Of a DNA stretch of 64,000 nucleotides, positions 5,047 to 16,473 are shown one piece after another. A program made the translations under genes and the position numbers. The notes below the pieces were generated by a model. It ran no database searches. It was not told the DNA's origin and saw only the letters and a list, made by a program, of their open reading frames with translations. Source of the stretch: Thermoanaerobacteraceae bacterium (GTDB lineage Bacteria; Bacillota; JADQBR01); the NCBI GenBank assembly GCA_017656305.1, contig JACDOG010000006.1:1-64000 (forward strand). The letters run 5' to 3'. Position 1 is the first letter of the stretch; each line of letters begins with the position of its first letter.

Positions 5047-5111
5047 ATGGTTACACTTTCTAAAAGGTTATTCGTCCAGTTTGTCGAATAAAGCAAAGTG
5101 GAGTGAGAGAT

Positions 5112-5636
5112 ATGCGAAAAATAATTGTGAAATTATTAACAAGCGACTGGCCCTACTGGGTTGGCGGTGTCGGTATTGCCGTAATTAATATAGGTTTGCT
5201 GGCTTTAACAGGCAAGCCATGGGGAATAACCACCACCGTAACCCTGTGGGGCTTCAAGTTGGCAAACATTATTGGCGTCAGGTTGGAAAATGTTGAGGCT
5301 TTTCGCGAATACCTGACACGGCTGGCTGACTTTAATTTCTGGTACGGCGGCAACCTGTTAAATGTTGGTCTAATATTTGGCGTGCTGGTTTCCGCTATCA
5401 TATCAAGAGAGTTTCGTTTTAAAAAAATAACCGGCAAGCGGCAGGTCTACCTGGCTTTACTCGGCGGCTTGTTGATGGGATACGGGGCGCGCCTGGCTTC
5501 GGGCTGCAACGTGGGGGCGCTTGTGGGCGGCATATCGTCCCTGTCGTTCCACGGCTGGCTTTTTCTGATATTTGCCCTGGGGGGAGCCTGGGTCGGCTGC
5601 CAGATTATGTATGTGCTTTTGAGGAGGGTTATGTGA
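5112..5636 (+). CDS. YeeE/YedE (TsuA-like) sulfur transporter, first half
   Basis: A 174-residue integral membrane protein with about four hydrophobic segments, matching the N-terminal type of split YeeE/YedE family proteins. The conserved GYGARLASGCNVG segment carries the cysteine that in TsuA (YeeE) helps pass thiosulfate through the membrane. ATG at 5112 is chosen because GGAG lies 8 bases before it; the in-frame GTG at 5103 overlaps that site. The next gene encodes the second half and starts two bases after this stop, followed by tusA, so the three form one operon for uptake and relay of a sulfur species (thiosulfate is the known substrate of TsuA; a selenium-linked role is known for some relatives). 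Substrate is inferred from family and neighbours. Confidence 0.85.
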   Translation: MRKIIVKLLTSDWPYWVGGVGIAVINIGLLALTGKPWGITTTVTLWGFKLANIIGVRLENVEAFREYLTRLADFNFWYGGNLLNVGLIFGVLVSAIISREFRFKKITGKRQVYLALLGGLLMGYGARLASGCNVGALVGGISSLSFHGWLFLIFALGGAWVGCQIMYVLLRRVM

Positions 5637-5637
5637 A

Positions 5638-6240
5638 GTGAAGCGAAAAATATTGACCCTGCTGTTGCTGGTGACCTTTATCATAATACTTGTAATTGCC
5701 TGGGAACATGGCAGTTCATTATACTGGGCGGCCGGAGTCTTGTTGGGATTTATTTTGCACCGTTGTCGGTTTTGTTTTGCCGCGGCGTTCAGGGACCTGA
5801 TAATGTTTCGTGACGGTTCCGTTACTCGTGCCGTGATAATTTCGCTAGCCATATCAACGGTGGGGTTTGCATTGCTGCAGTACTATTCCGGCTTAACCGG
5901 AAGTGATGTGCCCGGAAACATTGAAGCTGTAGGTGTTAATACCATGGCCGGTGCATTTTTGTTCGGAATTGGCATGGTGATTGCCGGATGTTGTGCCTGT
6001 AGTTTTCTCATGCGCCTGGGAGAAGGTTTTATATTATTTTTGTTTGTTCTAATAGGCATGCTGCCCGGTTCTCTTTTGGGCTTGCTGCACAGGCAGTGGT
6101 GGGAAAGTATCTGGTCCCACCCGCCCGTTTATTTTCCCGATTATCTGGGGTGGGGAATTACTGTTGTTGTGCAACTGTTGACATTGATGGGTCTTTACTT
6201 GATTGTCAGACGGTGGGAAAAGACGGAAAGGGGGATTTAA
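5638..6240 (+). CDS. YeeE/YedE (TsuA-like) sulfur transporter, second half
   Basis: A 200-residue membrane protein with about five hydrophobic segments. It has the family cysteine patterns HRCRFCFAAAFRD (about residues 40-52) and AGCCACSFLMRLGEG (about 119-133). Full-length YeeE proteins of about 350 residues carry both halves; here they are separate genes that together give about 374 residues. The GTG start at 5638 has GAGGAGGG about 10 bases upstream, inside the end of the first gene. The tight spacing argues for co-translation and a heteromeric transporter. The genes are a natural split form, not a frameshift, because each has its own ribosome binding site. Confidence 0.85.
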   Translation: MKRKILTLLLLVTFIIILVIAWEHGSSLYWAAGVLLGFILHRCRFCFAAAFRDLIMFRDGSVTRAVIISLAISTVGFALLQYYSGLTGSDVPGNIEAVGVNTMAGAFLFGIGMVIAGCCACSFLMRLGEGFILFLFVLIGMLPGSLLGLLHRQWWESIWSHPPVYFPDYLGWGITVVVQLLTLMGLYLIVRRWEKTERGI

Positions 6241-6241
6241 A

Positions 6242-6472
6242 ATGGGAAAGAAATATGTCCTGGATGTCTTAGGAGAAGTTTGCCCAGTGCCGCTGTTCAA
6301 GACCAAGGAAAAGGTCACCAGGGAACTGTCTTCTGGTGATACTTTACTTGTGGAAACGGATTTTCCGCGGGCGGTGCGCAATATTATTGACTGGTCGGAG
6401 AAACACGGGCATCATGTAAAAGTGATTGAAATTGACGAAGCCTGCTGGCAGGTACAGGTGACAAAAAAATAG
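6242..6472 (+). CDS. TusA/SirA-family sulfur carrier protein
   Basis: A 76-residue cytoplasmic protein of the TusA (SirA, YeeD) family. It has the family's CPxP motif (C14-P-V-P17) preceded by the LDVLGEV strand; C14 is the residue that carries the persulfide. The ATG at 6242 has GGGGGAT about 6 bases before it and starts one base after the preceding stop. In YeeE-YeeD systems the TusA-like partner is needed for thiosulfate uptake, so this protein most likely accepts or activates sulfur brought in by the two transporter halves. Confidence 0.9.
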   Translation: MGKKYVLDVLGEVCPVPLFKTKEKVTRELSSGDTLLVETDFPRAVRNIIDWSEKHGHHVKVIEIDEACWQVQVTKK

Positions 6473-9024: not shown

Positions 9025-9053
9025 TTGACACCCTTTTATGCCGTTGATACAAT
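9025..9053 (+). promoter_or_regulatory. Sigma-A promoter of the UPF0316 gene
   Basis: TTGACA (9025-9030), 17-base spacer, TACAAT (9048-9053); one mismatch to consensus. The ATG is at 9089, giving a leader of about 30 bases. Confidence 0.85.
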
Positions 9054-9088: not shown

Positions 9089-9610
9089 ATGGAAGTACTA
9101 ATTGGATACTTTTTTATTTTTTTTGCCAGGGTGATGGATGTTTCCCTGTTTACCGTCAGGACTCTGATGGTAGTTCGCGGGCAGCGGCTTTTCGCTGCCT
9201 TAATCGGTTTTTTTGAAACCGTTATTTATATTGTGGCTTTAAAATATGTTGTGGACCAATTGGACAACGTCTGGAGCCTGATGTTTTATGCTCTGGGTTT
9301 TTCTACGGGAAATGTTGTGGGAAGCTGGATTGAGGAAAAGTTGGCTATTGGTAATCTGACGGTTCAGGTGATTACCCAGACAAGGCCACTGGAACTGACT
9401 GCCAAATTGAGACGTGAGGGATACGGTGTTACCGTTGTAGAAGGGCAGGGTAGGGATGGCCTGCGCTATATTTTAAACATTCACTTACCACGCAGGAGTT
9501 TAAATAAATTAATGGAAAAAATAGACCAGTGGGATGTGAAGGCTTTTGTAACAGTTTTTGACACCCGGGCCATAAAAGGAGGCATTGTTTTTAACCGTAA
9601 GGGTAAATAG
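9089..9610 (+). CDS. UPF0316 membrane protein (DUF5698/DUF2179)
   Basis: A 173-residue protein of the UPF0316 family. Residues about 4-85 hold three hydrophobic segments with the family pattern ARVMDVSLFTVRTLMVVRG and FFETVIYIVALKYVV. Residues about 90-170 form a soluble DUF2179-type (YitT C-terminal-like) domain. The function is not established; DUF2179 domains resemble small-ligand or regulatory domains. The gene has its own promoter and a weak terminator, so it stands alone before murI. Confidence 0.88.
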   Translation: MEVLIGYFFIFFARVMDVSLFTVRTLMVVRGQRLFAALIGFFETVIYIVALKYVVDQLDNVWSLMFYALGFSTGNVVGSWIEEKLAIGNLTVQVITQTRPLELTAKLRREGYGVTVVEGQGRDGLRYILNIHLPRRSLNKLMEKIDQWDVKAFVTVFDTRAIKGGIVFNRKGK

Positions 9611-9797: not shown

Positions 9798-10604
9798 TTG
9801 ACAGGATATTGCCCTATCGGGGTCTTTGACTCCGGTGTGGGAGGTTTAACAGTAGCCAGGGAAATTTTGAAACGTGTGCCTGAAGGGAAAATCATTTACT
9901 TTGGCGATACGGCTCATGTGCCATATGGAGGCCGCAGCAGTAAGGAACTGATAAACTTTGCCGATAAAATCTGCCAGTTTCTTTTGGAGCAGGGTGCCGA
10001 AGTGATTGTGGATGCTTGCAACAGTACTTCTGCTGTGGCACTAGACTTTTTACAGCGGAAATACCCGGTGCCCATTATCGGGGTTATTGAACCAGGAGTT
10101 GCTGCTGCCGTATCCCGGACAAAAAATGGTCGCATTGGTGTCATAGCCACTGAGGCGACTATCAACAGCGGTGCCCATAAAAAGGCTGTGGAAAAACTGG
10201 GGCTGGATATAACGGTAATAGGCCAGGCCTGCCCGCTTTTTGTGCCGCTAGTAGAAGAGGGTAAAGTGCAGTCCTGGGAGGCGCTTGAAGCGGCACAGAA
10301 GTACCTGAAACCCTTGCAGCAGGCAGACATTGATACTTTGATTTTGGGCTGTACCCATTACCCGTTTTTAGTTCCTGTCTTGCAAAAAGTGCTTGGACCG
10401 CATGTAGTTCTGGTGGATCCGGCAGTGGAAACTGTCTGCTGCCTGCAAAAGGTGGTTGAGGAGTTGCCGAATCGTAATTGGACCGGCCCTCACAAATATT
10501 TTGTCAGCGGTGATCCTGCGGCTTTCAAACGGGTCGGCAGCATGTTGTTGGAAACTTACAGCTTGCCGGAAGTGGAAAAGGTTGTGCTGGACTGGGGTGA
10601 TTAA
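9798..10604 (+). CDS. murI: Glutamate racemase
   Basis: A 268-residue racemase that interconverts L- and D-glutamate for peptidoglycan. The catalytic cysteines are C74 (DACNSTSA) and C185 (LGCTHYPF), and the N-terminal FDSGVGGLT loop carries D11. Length is normal. The start is TTG at 9798, supported by a GGTAGGTG ribosome binding site and by alignment of the N-terminal strand with the family. It is the first gene of a run that continues almost without gaps to the phosphoesterase gene ending at 16473; the next start is three bases after its stop. Confidence 0.95.
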   Translation: MTGYCPIGVFDSGVGGLTVAREILKRVPEGKIIYFGDTAHVPYGGRSSKELINFADKICQFLLEQGAEVIVDACNSTSAVALDFLQRKYPVPIIGVIEPGVAAAVSRTKNGRIGVIATEATINSGAHKKAVEKLGLDITVIGQACPLFVPLVEEGKVQSWEALEAAQKYLKPLQQADIDTLILGCTHYPFLVPVLQKVLGPHVVLVDPAVETVCCLQKVVEELPNRNWTGPHKYFVSGDPAAFKRVGSMLLETYSLPEVEKVVLDWGD

Positions 10605-10606
10605 AA

Positions 10607-12058
10607 TTGGAACTTAGCCATCATAAATGGTCGGAAGAATTTTTTAATCAGGAAAGAAAACAGGTGCTGTCCCAATGGCCAACAGGGCAGGAAGTACAGC
10701 TGGACGAAGCCTTTCGCTTTCACAGGCAGCTTCCGGAGGAAAAAAACATGCATGCTGTTCTTGCCAAATCCCGCGTTCGCCCGCTAATCCAACCACGCGG
10801 TGGACGAGCCCTTTTGGAACAGCAACTCTCCCTCATGCGGTACCTGGCGGAGGAAGGTCAGGCGGACCTTTTGACAATTACCATTGACGGTTTGACCCGT
10901 GAACAGCAGTATCAAAAGCTGCAGGAAGAACTGGAATACTGTCACAGGAGCGGCAAAGATACGCTCAACGGCTTCCCGGTGGTTAATTACGGGGTGGACG
11001 GCTGCCGGCAGTTGGTTAATGCTGTTGATAGGCCGGTTCAGGTGCGCCATGCGGCAATTGATGGGCGTTTACTGGCGGAAATAGCAGTGGCCGGGGGGAT
11101 TACTTCACTGGAAGGTGGTGGCCTCAGCGCCAATATTCCTTATTTAAGAGATTATGATCCCGAACTGTCGCTGCGCCACTGGCAGTACGTGGACCGGTTG
11201 CTGGGAAAATACCAGGAGGCCGGCATAACTATCAACAGGGAACCTTTTGGCGCCTTGACAGGGGCTTTGGTACCACCTTGTATCAGTCATGCTGTAGGTA
11301 TTATAGAGGCTTTACTGGCGGCTTTTCAGGGCGTAGCCAGTGTTACCCTGAGCTACGGGCAGTGCGGTAATTTGATGCAAGACGTAGCGGCCATACATAC
11401 TTTGCCCGTTTTAGCACAAAAATATTTACAGCAATTTAACCTGACCCGGGTCAGCATCACCACCGCGTTTCACCAGTGGATGGGTGGTTTTCCCCATGAT
11501 ACGCACCGGGCTTACGGGATTATCGGCTGGGCAGGAGCTACTGCTGCGCTGGCCCGGGCCGATAAGGTTCTGGTGAAGACACCGCATGAAGCCTTGGGTC
11601 ATCCCAATGAAGAGACTATCAGTGCAGGTCTCAAAACTACGCTGCAGGTAATCAACATGGCTTCGCAGCAGCCGTTGCCGGAAAATGCTGTTCTGGCGGA
11701 AGAAAAAGCGTTAATTATACGGGAAACGGAAAGCATTTTGGATGCGGTTATTGCCCTGGGCGACGGCGACGTGGCCCGCGGAACGGTGGAAGCGCTTAAA
11801 AAGGGTGTTTTGGACGTTCCTTTCGCCCCAAGCAAGTATAATGCCGGACGAGTTTTGCCGGCAAGGGATGTAAACGGGGCGGTGCGTTTTTTGGACTGCG
11901 GAAATTTACCTTTTGACCGGGAGATTAAGGAATTTCACCGGGAAAAGATTGCCCAGCGCGGCAGGGAGGAAGGGCGGGAACCTTCCTTCCAAATGGTTAT
12001 CGATGATATTTCTGCTATTAGCAAGGGAATGTTGCTGGGAAAAGGAACCCTTAATTAA
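10607..12058 (+). CDS. glmE: Glutamate mutase (methylaspartate mutase) epsilon subunit-like protein
   Basis: A 483-residue protein with the same length and near-collinear sequence as GlmE/MutE of Clostridium cochlearium, which forms the TIM-barrel half of the coenzyme B12-dependent enzyme that turns L-glutamate into 3-methylaspartate. The three substrate-binding arginines are kept (R64, R98 and R147, equivalent to R66, R100 and R149), as are E169 (E171), Y179 (Y181), K324 and E328 (K326, E330). Position 175 is alanine where the studied enzyme has Tyr177. The cobalamin-binding sigma subunit (GlmS/MutS) and GlmL, which normally flank glmE, are absent here. TTG start at 10607 with GGGGTGAT upstream. 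Its neighbours are murI and dehydratase-like genes, so it probably handles glutamate or a related acid, but whether it is an active mutase depends on an unlinked partner. Confidence 0.88.
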   Translation: MELSHHKWSEEFFNQERKQVLSQWPTGQEVQLDEAFRFHRQLPEEKNMHAVLAKSRVRPLIQPRGGRALLEQQLSLMRYLAEEGQADLLTITIDGLTREQQYQKLQEELEYCHRSGKDTLNGFPVVNYGVDGCRQLVNAVDRPVQVRHAAIDGRLLAEIAVAGGITSLEGGGLSANIPYLRDYDPELSLRHWQYVDRLLGKYQEAGITINREPFGALTGALVPPCISHAVGIIEALLAAFQGVASVTLSYGQCGNLMQDVAAIHTLPVLAQKYLQQFNLTRVSITTAFHQWMGGFPHDTHRAYGIIGWAGATAALARADKVLVKTPHEALGHPNEETISAGLKTTLQVINMASQQPLPENAVLAEEKALIIRETESILDAVIALGDGDVARGTVEALKKGVLDVPFAPSKYNAGRVLPARDVNGAVRFLDCGNLPFDREIKEFHREKIAQRGREEGREPSFQMVIDDISAISKGMLLGKGTLN

Positions 12059-12087
12059 AATTTTTATCAAAATTGGAGTTGTTTGTA

Positions 12088-13065
12088 ATGCGAAAAGTAG
12101 GGATTACCACCACCATACCGGTAGAGGTTTTATTTGCGGCGCAGGCGGTGCCCGTGGACTTGAACAATATTTTTATTACCCATGCTGAGGCCAAAAGGCT
12201 GGTGGAAGTTGCGGAAATTGCCGGTTACCCGCGCAATGTCTGCGGCTGGATTAAAGGACTTTACGGCACCGTCCTGGAAGATGAAACTATTAAAGAGGTT
12301 ATTGCAGTAACCCAAGGTGACTGTACCAACACCCATGCTTTGATGGAAACCCTGGAACTGGTGGGCATCAAAACCATTCCCTTTTCCTTTCCCTTTGACA
12401 GAGATGAAGACCTGATGCGTGCGCAGATAGAAAAATTGATGAAATATTTTCAGGTCGGCTGGTCAGAGGTGAAACAGGCTAAAGAGAGACTGGACCGGGT
12501 CCGGCGGTTGGTATGGGAAATAGACCGGCTAACTTGGGAGGAAGGTAAGGTGACGGGATTTGAAAATCACCTTTACCAGGTAAGCTGCAGTGATTTTGAA
12601 GGGGATATTGACGCTTTCGCGGCTAAAGTGCGCGGGTTTCTGGAAGAAGTCAAACAAAGAGAGCCCATGTCTCAAAAGATTAGATTGGGATTTATTGGTG
12701 TGCCGCCGATTGTTACGGACCTTTACGATTATATTGAGAGTATCGGTGCCCGCGTGGTCTTCAATGAAATTCAGAGACAGTTTTCCATGCCTTTTGATAC
12801 GGATGACCTGGTGGAACAGTACTTATTATATACATATCCCTACCACGTTGAGCGGCGGATAGAGGATATCAACAAGCAGGTGGCAGTGAGGGACATTGAC
12901 GGCCTGGTACACTACACCCAGAGTTTTTGTTTTCGCCAGATTGAAGACCTGATTATGCGTAGAAAGATCAAAGTTCCCATCTTGACTCTGGAAGGGGATA
13001 CCCCGGGTAAGCTGGATGCGCGCAGTAAAATGCGCTTGGACAGTTTTGTGGAAATGTTGAGGTGA
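12088..13065 (+). CDS. 2-hydroxyacyl-CoA dehydratase D-component-like protein (HgdB/BcrC fold)
   Basis: A 325-residue cytoplasmic protein of the 2-hydroxyglutaryl-CoA dehydratase subunit family. Three cysteines at spacing typical of the [4Fe-4S] ligands of this fold are C52 (NVCGWIKG), C79 (TQGDCTN) and C281 (QSFCFRQ). It is shorter than the usual 375-435 residues and there is only one such subunit, whereas the enzyme of glutamate fermentation is an HgdA-HgdB heterodimer. ATG at 12088 has GGAG 9 bases upstream. The activator gene follows directly. Single-subunit plus activator pairs occur widely in anaerobes and their substrates are mostly unknown, so a specific reaction should not be assumed. 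Confidence 0.85.
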   Translation: MRKVGITTTIPVEVLFAAQAVPVDLNNIFITHAEAKRLVEVAEIAGYPRNVCGWIKGLYGTVLEDETIKEVIAVTQGDCTNTHALMETLELVGIKTIPFSFPFDRDEDLMRAQIEKLMKYFQVGWSEVKQAKERLDRVRRLVWEIDRLTWEEGKVTGFENHLYQVSCSDFEGDIDAFAAKVRGFLEEVKQREPMSQKIRLGFIGVPPIVTDLYDYIESIGARVVFNEIQRQFSMPFDTDDLVEQYLLYTYPYHVERRIEDINKQVAVRDIDGLVHYTQSFCFRQIEDLIMRRKIKVPILTLEGDTPGKLDARSKMRLDSFVEMLR

Positions 13066-13070
13066 GCGGT

Positions 13071-13832
13071 ATGCTTTGCGGTATGGATTTGGGCAGTCGT
13101 TACGTGAAGGTGGCCCTGATGGAAAATGATGAGATTACAGGTACATACCAGTTTGATACCATTGAATTTTACCGCAAGTACGGCAGGAAAGAAAATGATG
13201 AACTAAGAGTTGATTTTGCCGCTTTAGGTCTGCCAGTTGCGGAAAAACTGGTGTCCACCGGTTACGGGCGCCTGACTGTGAAAATTGCCGGCGGGGAGAC
13301 AATTCCCGAGTTGAAGGCACATATGTTGGGTGCCATGTATCAAACGGGAAAGGAGAACTTTACTCTGCTGGACCTAGGCGGGCAGGACACCAAGATTATC
13401 CAGGTTATGAACGGCAAGATGGTTGACTTTATTACCAATGATAAGTGTGCTGCCAGCTCCGGGCGGTATCTGGAAAACATGGCGAAAGTGCTGGGGATTA
13501 CCCTGGATGAATTGAGCCGTTATTACCAGGAGCCGGTGGACCTATCCTCCACATGTGCTGTCTTCGGTGAAAGTGAGTTGATCGGCAAAATTGTCGAGGG
13601 TTACAGCATTGACACGCTGGCGGCCGGTGTCAACTATACCATTTTTAGAAGGGTAAGACCCATGCTTTTGAAAATGCTGACTGAGCCCGTTATTTTTACC
13701 GGCGGGGTTGCCCGTAATGAAGCGTTAAAGACCATTATTGAAAAGGAGCTGTCTGTGGAAGTTATTGTGCCTCCTAAACCCCAGTTGAACGGGGCTATCG
13801 GCTGCTGTGTCTACGCCGGTGAAGCTCTATGA
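13071..13832 (+). CDS. 2-hydroxyacyl-CoA dehydratase activator-like ATPase (HgdC/BadF family)
   Basis: A 253-residue ASKHA-fold ATPase. Phosphate-binding motifs are GMDLGSRY at the N-terminus and LDLGGQDTK at about 100-108; two cysteines, C126 (NDKCAASSGR) and C162 (STCAVFGESE), are in the positions that hold the [4Fe-4S] cluster at the dimer interface of HgdC. The family uses ATP to push one electron into the dehydratase. ATG at 13071 is chosen because GAGGTGA (13059-13065) is its ribosome binding site; the in-frame GTG at 13062 lies inside that site. It is coupled to the preceding dehydratase-like gene and overlaps the next gene by four bases. Confidence 0.92.
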   Translation: MLCGMDLGSRYVKVALMENDEITGTYQFDTIEFYRKYGRKENDELRVDFAALGLPVAEKLVSTGYGRLTVKIAGGETIPELKAHMLGAMYQTGKENFTLLDLGGQDTKIIQVMNGKMVDFITNDKCAASSGRYLENMAKVLGITLDELSRYYQEPVDLSSTCAVFGESELIGKIVEGYSIDTLAAGVNYTIFRRVRPMLLKMLTEPVIFTGGVARNEALKTIIEKELSVEVIVPPKPQLNGAIGCCVYAGEAL

Positions 13833-14566
13833 AGTTGACGGTATTGGGCTGCTGGGCGCCGTATGCACGGGCAAACGGAGCCTGTTCCGGTTACCTGGTC
13901 CAGGGCGAGGAAACAAATTTGCTGCTGGACTGCGGCAACGGTGTTTTTGGCAAACTGCAGGAAGCGGTGGATTTTCGCAAATTGGATGCGGTGATTATAT
14001 CCCACTTGCACCCGGACCATTTTGCCGACCTGTTTTCCTTGCGGCACGCGCTAAAGGGAAGTTTCTGGGACGGCAGCAGGGACGCTAAGCTGGACCTGTA
14101 CCTGCCCGGTGAAGAAACCGAGTACAGTTTTCTTTTGCAAAAATTTTCCGATGCCTTTAACATTTACTATACAGAGCAGTTTACAAATGTGGAAATTGGG
14201 GAATTTAAAGTCAGCTTTTTCTCCACCGTACACCTTTTGCCATGCTGGGGTTCCGTGGTGCGGGGAAGTACGGGTACATTGGTCTACTCTGCAGACACGG
14301 CATGGGATGACCGTTACCGGCAAATCTGGCAGGGTGCAGATTTGCTGCTGTGTGAGGCCAGTGGCCTGGAAAAAGATAGGGAGTATGCCCGGGGAGCCCA
14401 TTTAACGGCCGGGCAAGCCGGACAGCTTGCCGCTGCGGCAGCCGTGAAACGCCTGTTACTGACGCATTTTTATCCTGAATATGATTTGGCTGTTCTCAAG
14501 CAGGAAGCTGCCCGGTACTATCAAGAAGTGGAATTGGTCCATGAAGGAGCAGGTTATTTTGTTTAA
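13829..14566 (+). CDS. Metallo-beta-lactamase-fold hydrolase (YhfI-like)
   Basis: A 245-residue soluble MBL-fold protein. The metal motif is H59-x-H61-x-D63-H64; further ligands are H136 (STVHLLP), D157 (YSADTAW) and the histidine of LLLTHFYPE. The general build (tRNase Z-like, no extra domain) matches YhfI-type hydrolases of unknown substrate. It starts in an ATGA overlap with the activator gene, so translation is coupled, and precedes rph by 45 bases. Phosphodiester or ester hydrolysis is likely; nothing in the sequence gives the substrate. Confidence 0.88.
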   Translation: MKLTVLGCWAPYARANGACSGYLVQGEETNLLLDCGNGVFGKLQEAVDFRKLDAVIISHLHPDHFADLFSLRHALKGSFWDGSRDAKLDLYLPGEETEYSFLLQKFSDAFNIYYTEQFTNVEIGEFKVSFFSTVHLLPCWGSVVRGSTGTLVYSADTAWDDRYRQIWQGADLLLCEASGLEKDREYARGAHLTAGQAGQLAAAAAVKRLLLTHFYPEYDLAVLKQEAARYYQEVELVHEGAGYFV

Positions 14567-14611: not shown

Positions 14612-15361
14612 ATGGCCAGACAGGACGGCAGGTCTAATGACCAGATTAGACCTGTTAAAATTACGCGCAATTTTACCAAATATGCGGAAGGTTCAGTGTT
14701 GATTGAAACAGGTGAGACCAAAGTGATCTGTACCGCTTCCGTGGAGGAAAAGGTGCCCGCATGGTTAAAAGGAGGGGGGCAGGGCTGGGTAACCGCCGAG
14801 TATTCCATGCTGCCCAGGGCTACCGAGGTGCGCAATGTCAGGGAAGCAGCCAAGGGGAAAATCGGTGGCAGGACCCAGGAGATTCAGCGGCTGATTGGGC
14901 GTAGCTTGCGGTCGGTTGTGGCCCTGGACAAGCTGGGTGAAAGAACAATCTGGTTGGACTGTGACGTACTGCAGGCTGACGGTGGAACCAGAACAGCCAG
15001 TATTACGGGGGCCTTTGTTGCCTTGGTGGATGCCCTGGTCAAACTGCAGGAAGCGGAATTGATTGAAGAATTACCGGTTACGGATTTTATTGCTGCCACC
15101 AGCGTCGGAATTATAAACGGTGAGGTAATGGTGGATTTGAATTACGGGGAGGATTCCCAGGCGCAGGTAGATATGAATTTGGTCATGACTGGTAGCGGTA
15201 ATTTTGTTGAGATACAGGGTACGGCTGAAGGCAGTCCCTTTAACGAAGCGGAATTTCAGGATATGCTGCGCTTGGGCAAGCAGGGAGTTCAGCAGTTGAT
15301 AAACATTCAAAAGGAAGTGCTGGGTGACATGGCCCAAAAAATCGGGGTGGTTGAAACATAA
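14612..15361 (+). CDS. rph: Ribonuclease PH
   Basis: A 249-residue phosphorolytic 3' exoribonuclease that trims tRNA 3' ends. Family segments are easy to see: RPVKI at the start, [28 protein letters not shown] and [14 protein letters not shown]. Length is normal. ATG at 14612 follows GGGGAGG. Its stop overlaps the start of rdgB (TAATG), a pairing common in Firmicutes. The tRNA genes here already encode CCA, so its role would be precursor trimming. Confidence 0.96.
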
Positions 15362-15960
15362 TGCGTATTTTATTAGCCAGTGGTAATAAAGATAAACTCA
15401 AGGAGTTTTCTCAGCTAATGCCCCGCGGTGTTGAGGTGCTTTCTTTGGTCGATTTTCCCGGCCATCCCGCTTTAATAGAGGATGGCCAAAGTTTTGCAGA
15501 AAATGCACTGAAAAAAGCGCGCACCATGTGCGAGTACACCGGCCTGCTAACAATTGCCGATGATTCCGGGTTGGAAGTGGATTACCTGGATGGAGCACCG
15601 GGTATCTATTCAGCCCGGTTTGCCGGTGAGCCAAAGAGTGACCGGCGCAACAATAAGAAATTGCTTCAACTGCTGGCGGGTGTACCCTGGGAAAAACGTA
15701 CGGCCCGGTTTGTCTGCGCCCTGGCAATTGTTGACCCGGGCGGAGAGGAGCATGTGGTACTCGGTACCTGTGAAGGCTATATTCTGGAGGAACCCAGGGG
15801 TACTGGCGGATTTGGCTATGACCCGTTGTTTTATTACCCCCCATTTAAAAAATCTTTTGCCGAGCTGGATACGGAACAAAAAAACCAAGTCAGTCACCGG
15901 TCTAGGGCTTTTGCCAAAGGGTCTGCCGTGTTAAAATCCATTTTGGCAAACCGGTCTTAG
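15361..15960 (+). CDS. rdgB: XTP/dITP (non-canonical purine NTP) pyrophosphatase
   Basis: A 199-residue HAM1/RdgB-family enzyme that hydrolyses dITP and XTP to monophosphates and so keeps deaminated purines out of nucleic acids. Motifs: SGNKDKLKEF near the N-terminus, ADDSGLEVD, YSARFAG, GFGYDPLFY and SHRSRAFAK. The ATG shares a base with the rph stop, showing translational coupling. Confidence 0.96.
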   Translation: MRILLASGNKDKLKEFSQLMPRGVEVLSLVDFPGHPALIEDGQSFAENALKKARTMCEYTGLLTIADDSGLEVDYLDGAPGIYSARFAGEPKSDRRNNKKLLQLLAGVPWEKRTARFVCALAIVDPGGEEHVVLGTCEGYILEEPRGTGGFGYDPLFYYPPFKKSFAELDTEQKNQVSHRSRAFAKGSAVLKSILANRS

Positions 15961-15999
15961 AAAACAGGTGATTACGTGATTGAGGGGAAGTGTTCGTCA

Positions 16000-16473
16000 A
16001 TGCGCTTAGGTGTCGTCAGCGACAGCCACAAGGATATTGAGGCACTAAAACGTGCGCTGAAAAACATGGGTCCGGTTGACATGCTCTTACATGCCGGTGA
16101 TATGTATTCCGATGTCAAAATGGTGAAAAACTTGTTAGAGACCGGCGAAATTTATTCCGTGGTGGGAAACTGTGACCTGGACAGGCAGCCTGGCGAACAG
16201 CTGATAACAGTGTTTGGTTACAAACTTTATTTGACCCACGGGCACCTGCACGGTGTAAAATACCGTTTGGACAAATTAGTGTACCATGCCGAAGAAATAG
16301 GCGCCGACGTTGTTGTTTTCGGGCACACGCATGTTCCGTACCGGCAGTACTGGGGAGATATTTTACTTTTCAACCCCGGCAGTGTCAGCCGCCCGCGAGG
16401 CGTCAGGCAGGCCAGCTATGGAATAATCGAAATTATCGATAGTACGATCCAGGCAAAAATCTATTATTTTTGA
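16000..16473 (+). CDS. YfcE/MJ0936-family metallophosphoesterase
   Basis: A 157-residue calcineurin-like phosphodiesterase. Metal-binding motifs are VSDSHKD, LLHAGDMY, VVGNCDLD, LTHGHLHGV and VVFGHTHVPY. Family members split model phosphodiesters and are also known as YfcE. The start is ambiguous: ATG at 16000 fits the first beta strand (MRLGVVSDSH) and has AGGGGA about 11 bases upstream; an in-frame GTG at 15976 would add eight residues and has AGGTGA just before it. It is the last gene of the murI-to-phosphoesterase run, in the usual Clostridia order rph-rdgB-yfcE. Confidence 0.92.
   Translation: MRLGVVSDSHKDIEALKRALKNMGPVDMLLHAGDMYSDVKMVKNLLETGEIYSVVGNCDLDRQPGEQLITVFGYKLYLTHGHLHGVKYRLDKLVYHAEEIGADVVVFGHTHVPYRQYWGDILLFNPGSVSRPRGVRQASYGIIEIIDSTIQAKIYYF

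Follow-up and report, generated by a model that had tools for sequence, protein, structure and literature searches.

The lone glmE gene of a Thermoanaerobacteraceae bacterium, found in the window analysed here (the whole 64,000-nucleotide stretch of contig JACDOG010000006.1), is best read as encoding a repurposed, cobalamin-free GlmE in which the binding of glutamate or a close analogue has probably persisted. We put the probability of this reading, in which we infer the biochemical role, at roughly 0.58. In the known two-part B12 enzyme, GlmE is one of two obligatory halves.

That a GlmE-like protein of normal length shares one operon with murI, an HgdB-like gene and an HgdC-like gene, as had been proposed from the sequence alone, is borne out by a full-length match to the glutamate mutase GlmE model TIGR01503 and by the tight, co-directional packing of the genes. 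According to the open reading frames and the Pfam and TIGRFAM profiles, a one-strand run extends from murI through glmE, the HgdB-like, HgdC-like and metallo-beta-lactamase-fold genes, and rph and rdgB to a yfcE-like gene, with the following features:

9025..9053, plus strand: promoter-like site TTGACA-17-TACAAT with an extended -10 (consensus scan, 11 of 12 matches), preceding the probable operon
9089..9610, plus strand: DUF5698/DUF2179 protein (Pfam), opening the probable operon
9798..10604, plus strand: murI, glutamate racemase (TIGR00067, 236 bits, over the cut-off)
10607..12058, plus strand: orphan glmE, glutamate mutase epsilon-subunit barrel of 483 aa (TIGR01503)
12073..13065, plus strand: HgdB-like single-subunit HGD-D family protein (PF06050, 138.5 bits)
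13062..13832, plus strand: HgdC-like ATPase of the acyl-CoA dehydratase activase family (TIGR00241, 200 bits against a cut-off of 125; phmmer to 4eht, E 8e-41)
13829..14566, plus strand: metallo-beta-lactamase-fold hydrolase, conserved operon member (Pfam, synteny)
14612..15361, plus strand: rph, ribonuclease PH, conserved downstream neighbour (sequence, synteny)
15361..15960, plus strand: rdgB/XTP pyrophosphatase-like, conserved downstream neighbour (sequence, synteny)
15976..16473, plus strand: yfcE-like metallophosphoesterase, conserved downstream neighbour (sequence, synteny)

The TTG start of glmE follows the murI stop by 2 nt, and a whole-genome search found murI to be the sole clear glutamate racemase gene of the genome. 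A DUF5698/DUF2179 gene also lies upstream of murI or of a GntR gene in several other loci with an orphan glmE. Elsewhere in the window, at 5103-6472, inspection by eye of the list of open reading frames showed a TusA/SirA-like protein coming after two YeeE/YedE-like membrane proteins.

The protein itself covers the whole length of TIGR01503 at 636.9 bits (cut-off 390.1), aligns end to end with GlmE of Clostridium cochlearium (1cb7_B) at 51% identity (phmmer E 4e-164), and its AlphaFold model (pLDDT 88.9) superposes on 1cb7_B with a TM score of 0.96. It thus has the same full-length barrel as the C. cochlearium glutamate mutase GlmES (methylaspartate mutase; PDB 1cb7/6h9e), and the presumed glutamate and deoxyadenosine contacts are likewise retained; it differs in the replacement of Y177 and five more invariant mouth residues, and its genome lacks GlmS, GlmL and methylaspartate ammonia-lyase (MAL).

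This genome (G000) is a draft of 62 contigs that is 99.95% complete. The absence of GlmS, which the sequence-only reading had claimed, was upheld by genome-wide searches with PF02310 and TIGR01501, which rule out a hidden copy: nothing exceeded the TIGR01501 cut-off, and none of the six proteins with a B12-binding domain is GlmS (two are methylmalonyl-CoA-mutase-type small subunits, two radical SAM proteins and two fused, aminomutase-like proteins of about 600 residues). No glmS/mutS or glmL was found, the GlmL/MutL reactivase search of the whole genome giving only a match that is below threshold and lies in an unrelated frame, and the genome search for MAL gave no true match, so that GlmL or MAL elsewhere in the genome is likewise ruled out. 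The observations named beforehand as speaking against a novel role, namely glmS with MAL elsewhere in the genome and a gene group unconserved in relatives, were looked for; the genome has neither gene, and the group recurs in relatives.

The two B12-binding proteins of about 600 residues form a separate subject. Located at G000:C2:154106 and C3:191626 (L089:8026-9897 and L090:8594-10402), they carry the B12-binding domain at the N-terminus, followed by a part without family assignment, and are each accompanied by a P-loop protein, a GidA-like FAD protein, a RidA-family protein and a possible PLP enzyme; the P-loop neighbour in L090 is an aminomutase reactivase of the KamB type (226.6 bits with NF052386, over the cut-off). 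Similar frames occur in G001, G002 and G113, and these loci resemble an undescribed B12 aminomutase system.

GlmE without a local GlmS was found in all three sampled genomes of the window's class and in 11 others, giving 14 orphans; as the class sample was limited to three genomes, the out-of-sample test of the residues discussed below used further canonical genes instead. GlmS over the cut-off was absent genome-wide from all ten orphan genomes tested (G000, G001, G002, G112, G023, G053, G066, G081, G091 and G104), and the same TIGR01501 search detected it in four of four genomes with canonical loci; for G076, G035, G238 and G260, its absence was established at the locus. MAL was missing from 13 of the 14 orphan genomes, the exception being G112, which has it away from the locus. 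Six core orphans (the window, G001, G002, G112, G076 and G035) form one clade with an SH-aLRT of 99. A single clade of all 14 was unrejected (AU p 0.83), the constrained tree scoring 10 log units above the best one from the free search; the placement of the longer-branched orphans (G081, G091, G053 and family f22) with the core clade may be affected by their long branches. All 14 may be one family. No description of GlmE without GlmS was found in the searched literature, which was largely open-access.

Family f22 (L136, L140, L141, L176 and L177) comprises very divergent GlmE-derived proteins of 405-505 aa in the gene order DUF2179-GntR-glmE-Ploop-rph, with no murI at the locus; most presumed catalytic residues have been lost, yet the proteins are conserved among themselves.

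The changes that set the orphans apart were mapped against 92 canonical, GlmS-partnered GlmEs, in which about 126-127 positions (C. cochlearium numbering) are identical throughout. Single orphans depart from these at 13-18 positions, with 18 in the window and 13 in the G112 protein, the core orphan nearest to the canonical ones. In control lineages, Bacteroidota, Spirochaetota and Chloroflexota among them, the changes number only 0-6; these lineages are from other phyla and without the shift, which speaks against chance divergence. Six positions invariant in the 92 differ in every one of the six core orphans, namely A67, N102, T152, Y177, P218 and N340, which in the window read G67, Q102, A152, A177, A218 and I340; the canonical residues at all six were kept in 27 of 27 further full-length canonical GlmEs from outside the defining set. 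L354 is also changed in every core orphan, but it is variable in two later canonical proteins. In the AlphaFold model, all six positions lie either in loops that follow barrel strands or where the next helix begins, and the active-site face has a modest but significant excess of changes (Fisher p 0.015-0.03). In the characterised enzyme, cobalamin and GlmS contact this face.

The pocket residues have fared differently in the core clade. R66, R100, R149, E171, Y181, K326 and E330, presumably the residues that contact glutamate and deoxyadenosine in the C. cochlearium structures, are all identical in the window protein and kept in the other core orphans, L175 with R326 being the exception. Most presumed glutamate contacts are lost in the five distant orphans of family f22 and in L137, and partly in L139; glutamate binding therefore cannot be a role that every orphan shares. 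A new invariant, catalytic-looking residue shared by the orphans was searched for and none was found, so that no new chemistry is visible. A further set of GlmE-like proteins, L173, L174 and L178 (G318, G090), has a GlmS neighbour, with position 171 occupied by P or A and position 177 by W or D; these are probably B12 mutases for another substrate.

A repurposed mutase barrel, one of the possibilities raised by the sequence-only reading, is well supported by the genome-wide loss of GlmS, the conservation of the orphan in relatives, purifying selection and the shifted residues at the barrel mouth. Of the glutamate fermentation genes glmS-glmL-glmE-mal, only glmE is left in the window, within the conserved murI-[glm]-hgdB-hgdC-mbl-rph-rdgB-yfcE operon of these Bacillota. 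Without GlmS, nothing would carry adenosylcobalamin into the barrel, the altered mouth would be freed from having to accept it, and GlmE would therefore no longer be a radical mutase. Given that the presumed contacts to glutamate persist, its most likely function would be that of a cobalamin-free binder of glutamate or a near analogue, with sensor, accessory protein or non-radical enzyme as candidate roles; it may cooperate with the translationally adjacent MurI. The more specific proposition, that the GlmE of this clade is anciently repurposed and B12-independent and has put its old glutamate pocket to a new use (glutamate sensing, association with MurI or a non-radical enzyme), is advanced tentatively, at a little less than even odds.

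Two alternatives have to be weighed against a cobalamin-free binder. GlmE may still be a B12 mutase, perhaps for another substrate, that borrows its B12-binding subunit from another mutase. K326 and E330 are indeed kept, altered-pocket GlmE-like proteins with a retained GlmS do exist (L173, L178), and G000 encodes two stand-alone small B12 subunits; however, both of these adjoin their own methylmalonyl-CoA-mutase-type large subunits, no stand-alone B12 subunit is seen in the orphan-bearing G104, GlmL, the reactivase, is missing as well, and it is the mouth, the side meeting cobalamin and GlmS, at which the invariant positions have changed. A borrowed subunit is accordingly considered unlikely.

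The other alternative is that the gene is a decaying remnant, a functionless glmE left from a lost glutamate fermentation cassette and held in a co-transcribed housekeeping operon. The loss of glmS, glmL and mal would fit such a relic, as would the more distant orphans without the pocket and the finding that orphan GlmE evolves somewhat faster, relative to neighbour genes, than canonical GlmE does; from this faster relative rate it follows that some relaxation or adaptation has occurred. Nevertheless, the frames are long and uninterrupted in all 14 orphans compared, which come from six families, and selection on the orphan GlmE is purifying: between the window and G001, which belong to different genera, pN is 0.18 against a saturated pS of 0.87, as is also seen for HgdB, HgdC and Rph. 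Moreover, families f1 and f34 share the same substitutions while the presumed glutamate contacts stay fixed, and a relic should lose residues at random. Decay is thus an improbable account of this gene.

The sequence-only reading had also suspected an undescribed pathway joining GlmE to the HgdB-like and HgdC-like proteins, and had considered it unusual for the methylaspartate and 2-hydroxyglutarate routes to share an operon. Neither idea withstood the comparison with relatives. In this part of the Bacillota, glm genes commonly have HgdBC-like neighbours, and any action of the HgdB-like protein on 2-hydroxyglutarate is conjectural. In Desulforamulus, Carboxydocella, Desulfosporosinus and others, the same slot reads murI-glmS-glmL-glmE-mal-hgdB-hgdC-mbl-(...)-rph-rdgB-yfcE, some of them missing one or another flanking gene; the window shares with the methylaspartate-pathway operon of Desulforamulus and Carboxydocella this position before hgdB-hgdC-mbl but lacks three of its four glm-pathway genes (glmS, glmL and mal). 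The short order murI-glmE-hgdB-hgdC-(mbl)-rph, with glmE beside HgdBC and no glmS, recurs in G001, G002 and G076, and other relatives (L195-L197, L199, L204, L207 and L208) have murI-hgdB-hgdC-(mbl)-rph with no glm gene whatsoever. As the operon exists without them, the glm genes are a module within it, and HgdBC belongs to the operon. In the Halobacteroidaceae, MurI and GlmS are apparently fused into one frame of about 410 residues adjoining glmL and glmE (L034:3414, L077:5324 and L080:4485).

That GlmE, HgdB, HgdC and MurI jointly form an undescribed glutamate pathway is consequently very unlikely. The tight co-directional operon and the reunion of the same four genes in three other genomes speak for it, but many genomes have HgdBC in this slot and no GlmE (the window's type of HgdB was found in 30 of 120 relatives, half of which, 15 of 30, are without GlmE), orphan GlmE occurs without adjacent HgdBC (L134, L175 and L136-L141) and without adjacent MurI, and any link between the HgdB-like protein and glutamate is hypothetical. 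The presence of HgdBC in the operon with or without glm removes the reason for a joint pathway; the shared operon is inherited gene order, and HgdB/HgdC is a neighbour of GlmE and not its partner.

The HgdB-like protein is, as judged from its sequence, an uncharacterised member of the HGD-D family with its own activase. Comparison with relatives places its true start probably at ATG 12088 and not at TTG 12073, and its three invariant cysteines are residues 57, 84 and 286. Its model matches 2-hydroxyisocaproyl-CoA dehydratase, the double-cubane cluster protein DCCP and BzdN/BzdO-type benzoyl-CoA reductase subunits, with TM scores of 0.77-0.80 to HadC/DCCP/BzdO at 13-20% identity. The HGD-D fold, the three invariant cysteines and an adjacent HgdC-type ATPase are held in common with the 2-hydroxyacyl-CoA dehydratases (HgdAB and HadBC, with the activators HgdC/HadI), the domain and the activator both being over their cut-offs (PF06050 and TIGR00241), whereas the window operon has one HGD-D gene instead of two and the identity over the structural match is 15-17%. 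A single HGD-D subunit with an HgdC-type ATPase is also the arrangement of DCCP and DCCP-R (structural match 7yzm, 19% identity), but the window protein is about 90 residues shorter and its score of 50.7 bits falls far below the 350 needed for NF040772, so that its assignment as a double-cubane protein was rejected.

Finally, a misassembly or annotation artefact that removed glmS-glmL-mal from the contig, conceivable for a draft in 62 pieces, deserves practically no credence, being already refuted: two other genera, of which one is represented by a single-contig genome (G002), share the arrangement, and their genomes have no GlmS or MAL anywhere.

A practical caution follows for annotation, since the TIGR01503 equivalog labels genomes that lack the pathway as carriers of methylaspartate mutase. 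For the family itself, a conserved barrel-only lineage with a changed cofactor face and an intact glutamate pocket constitutes a natural experiment on what such a barrel does without cobalamin.
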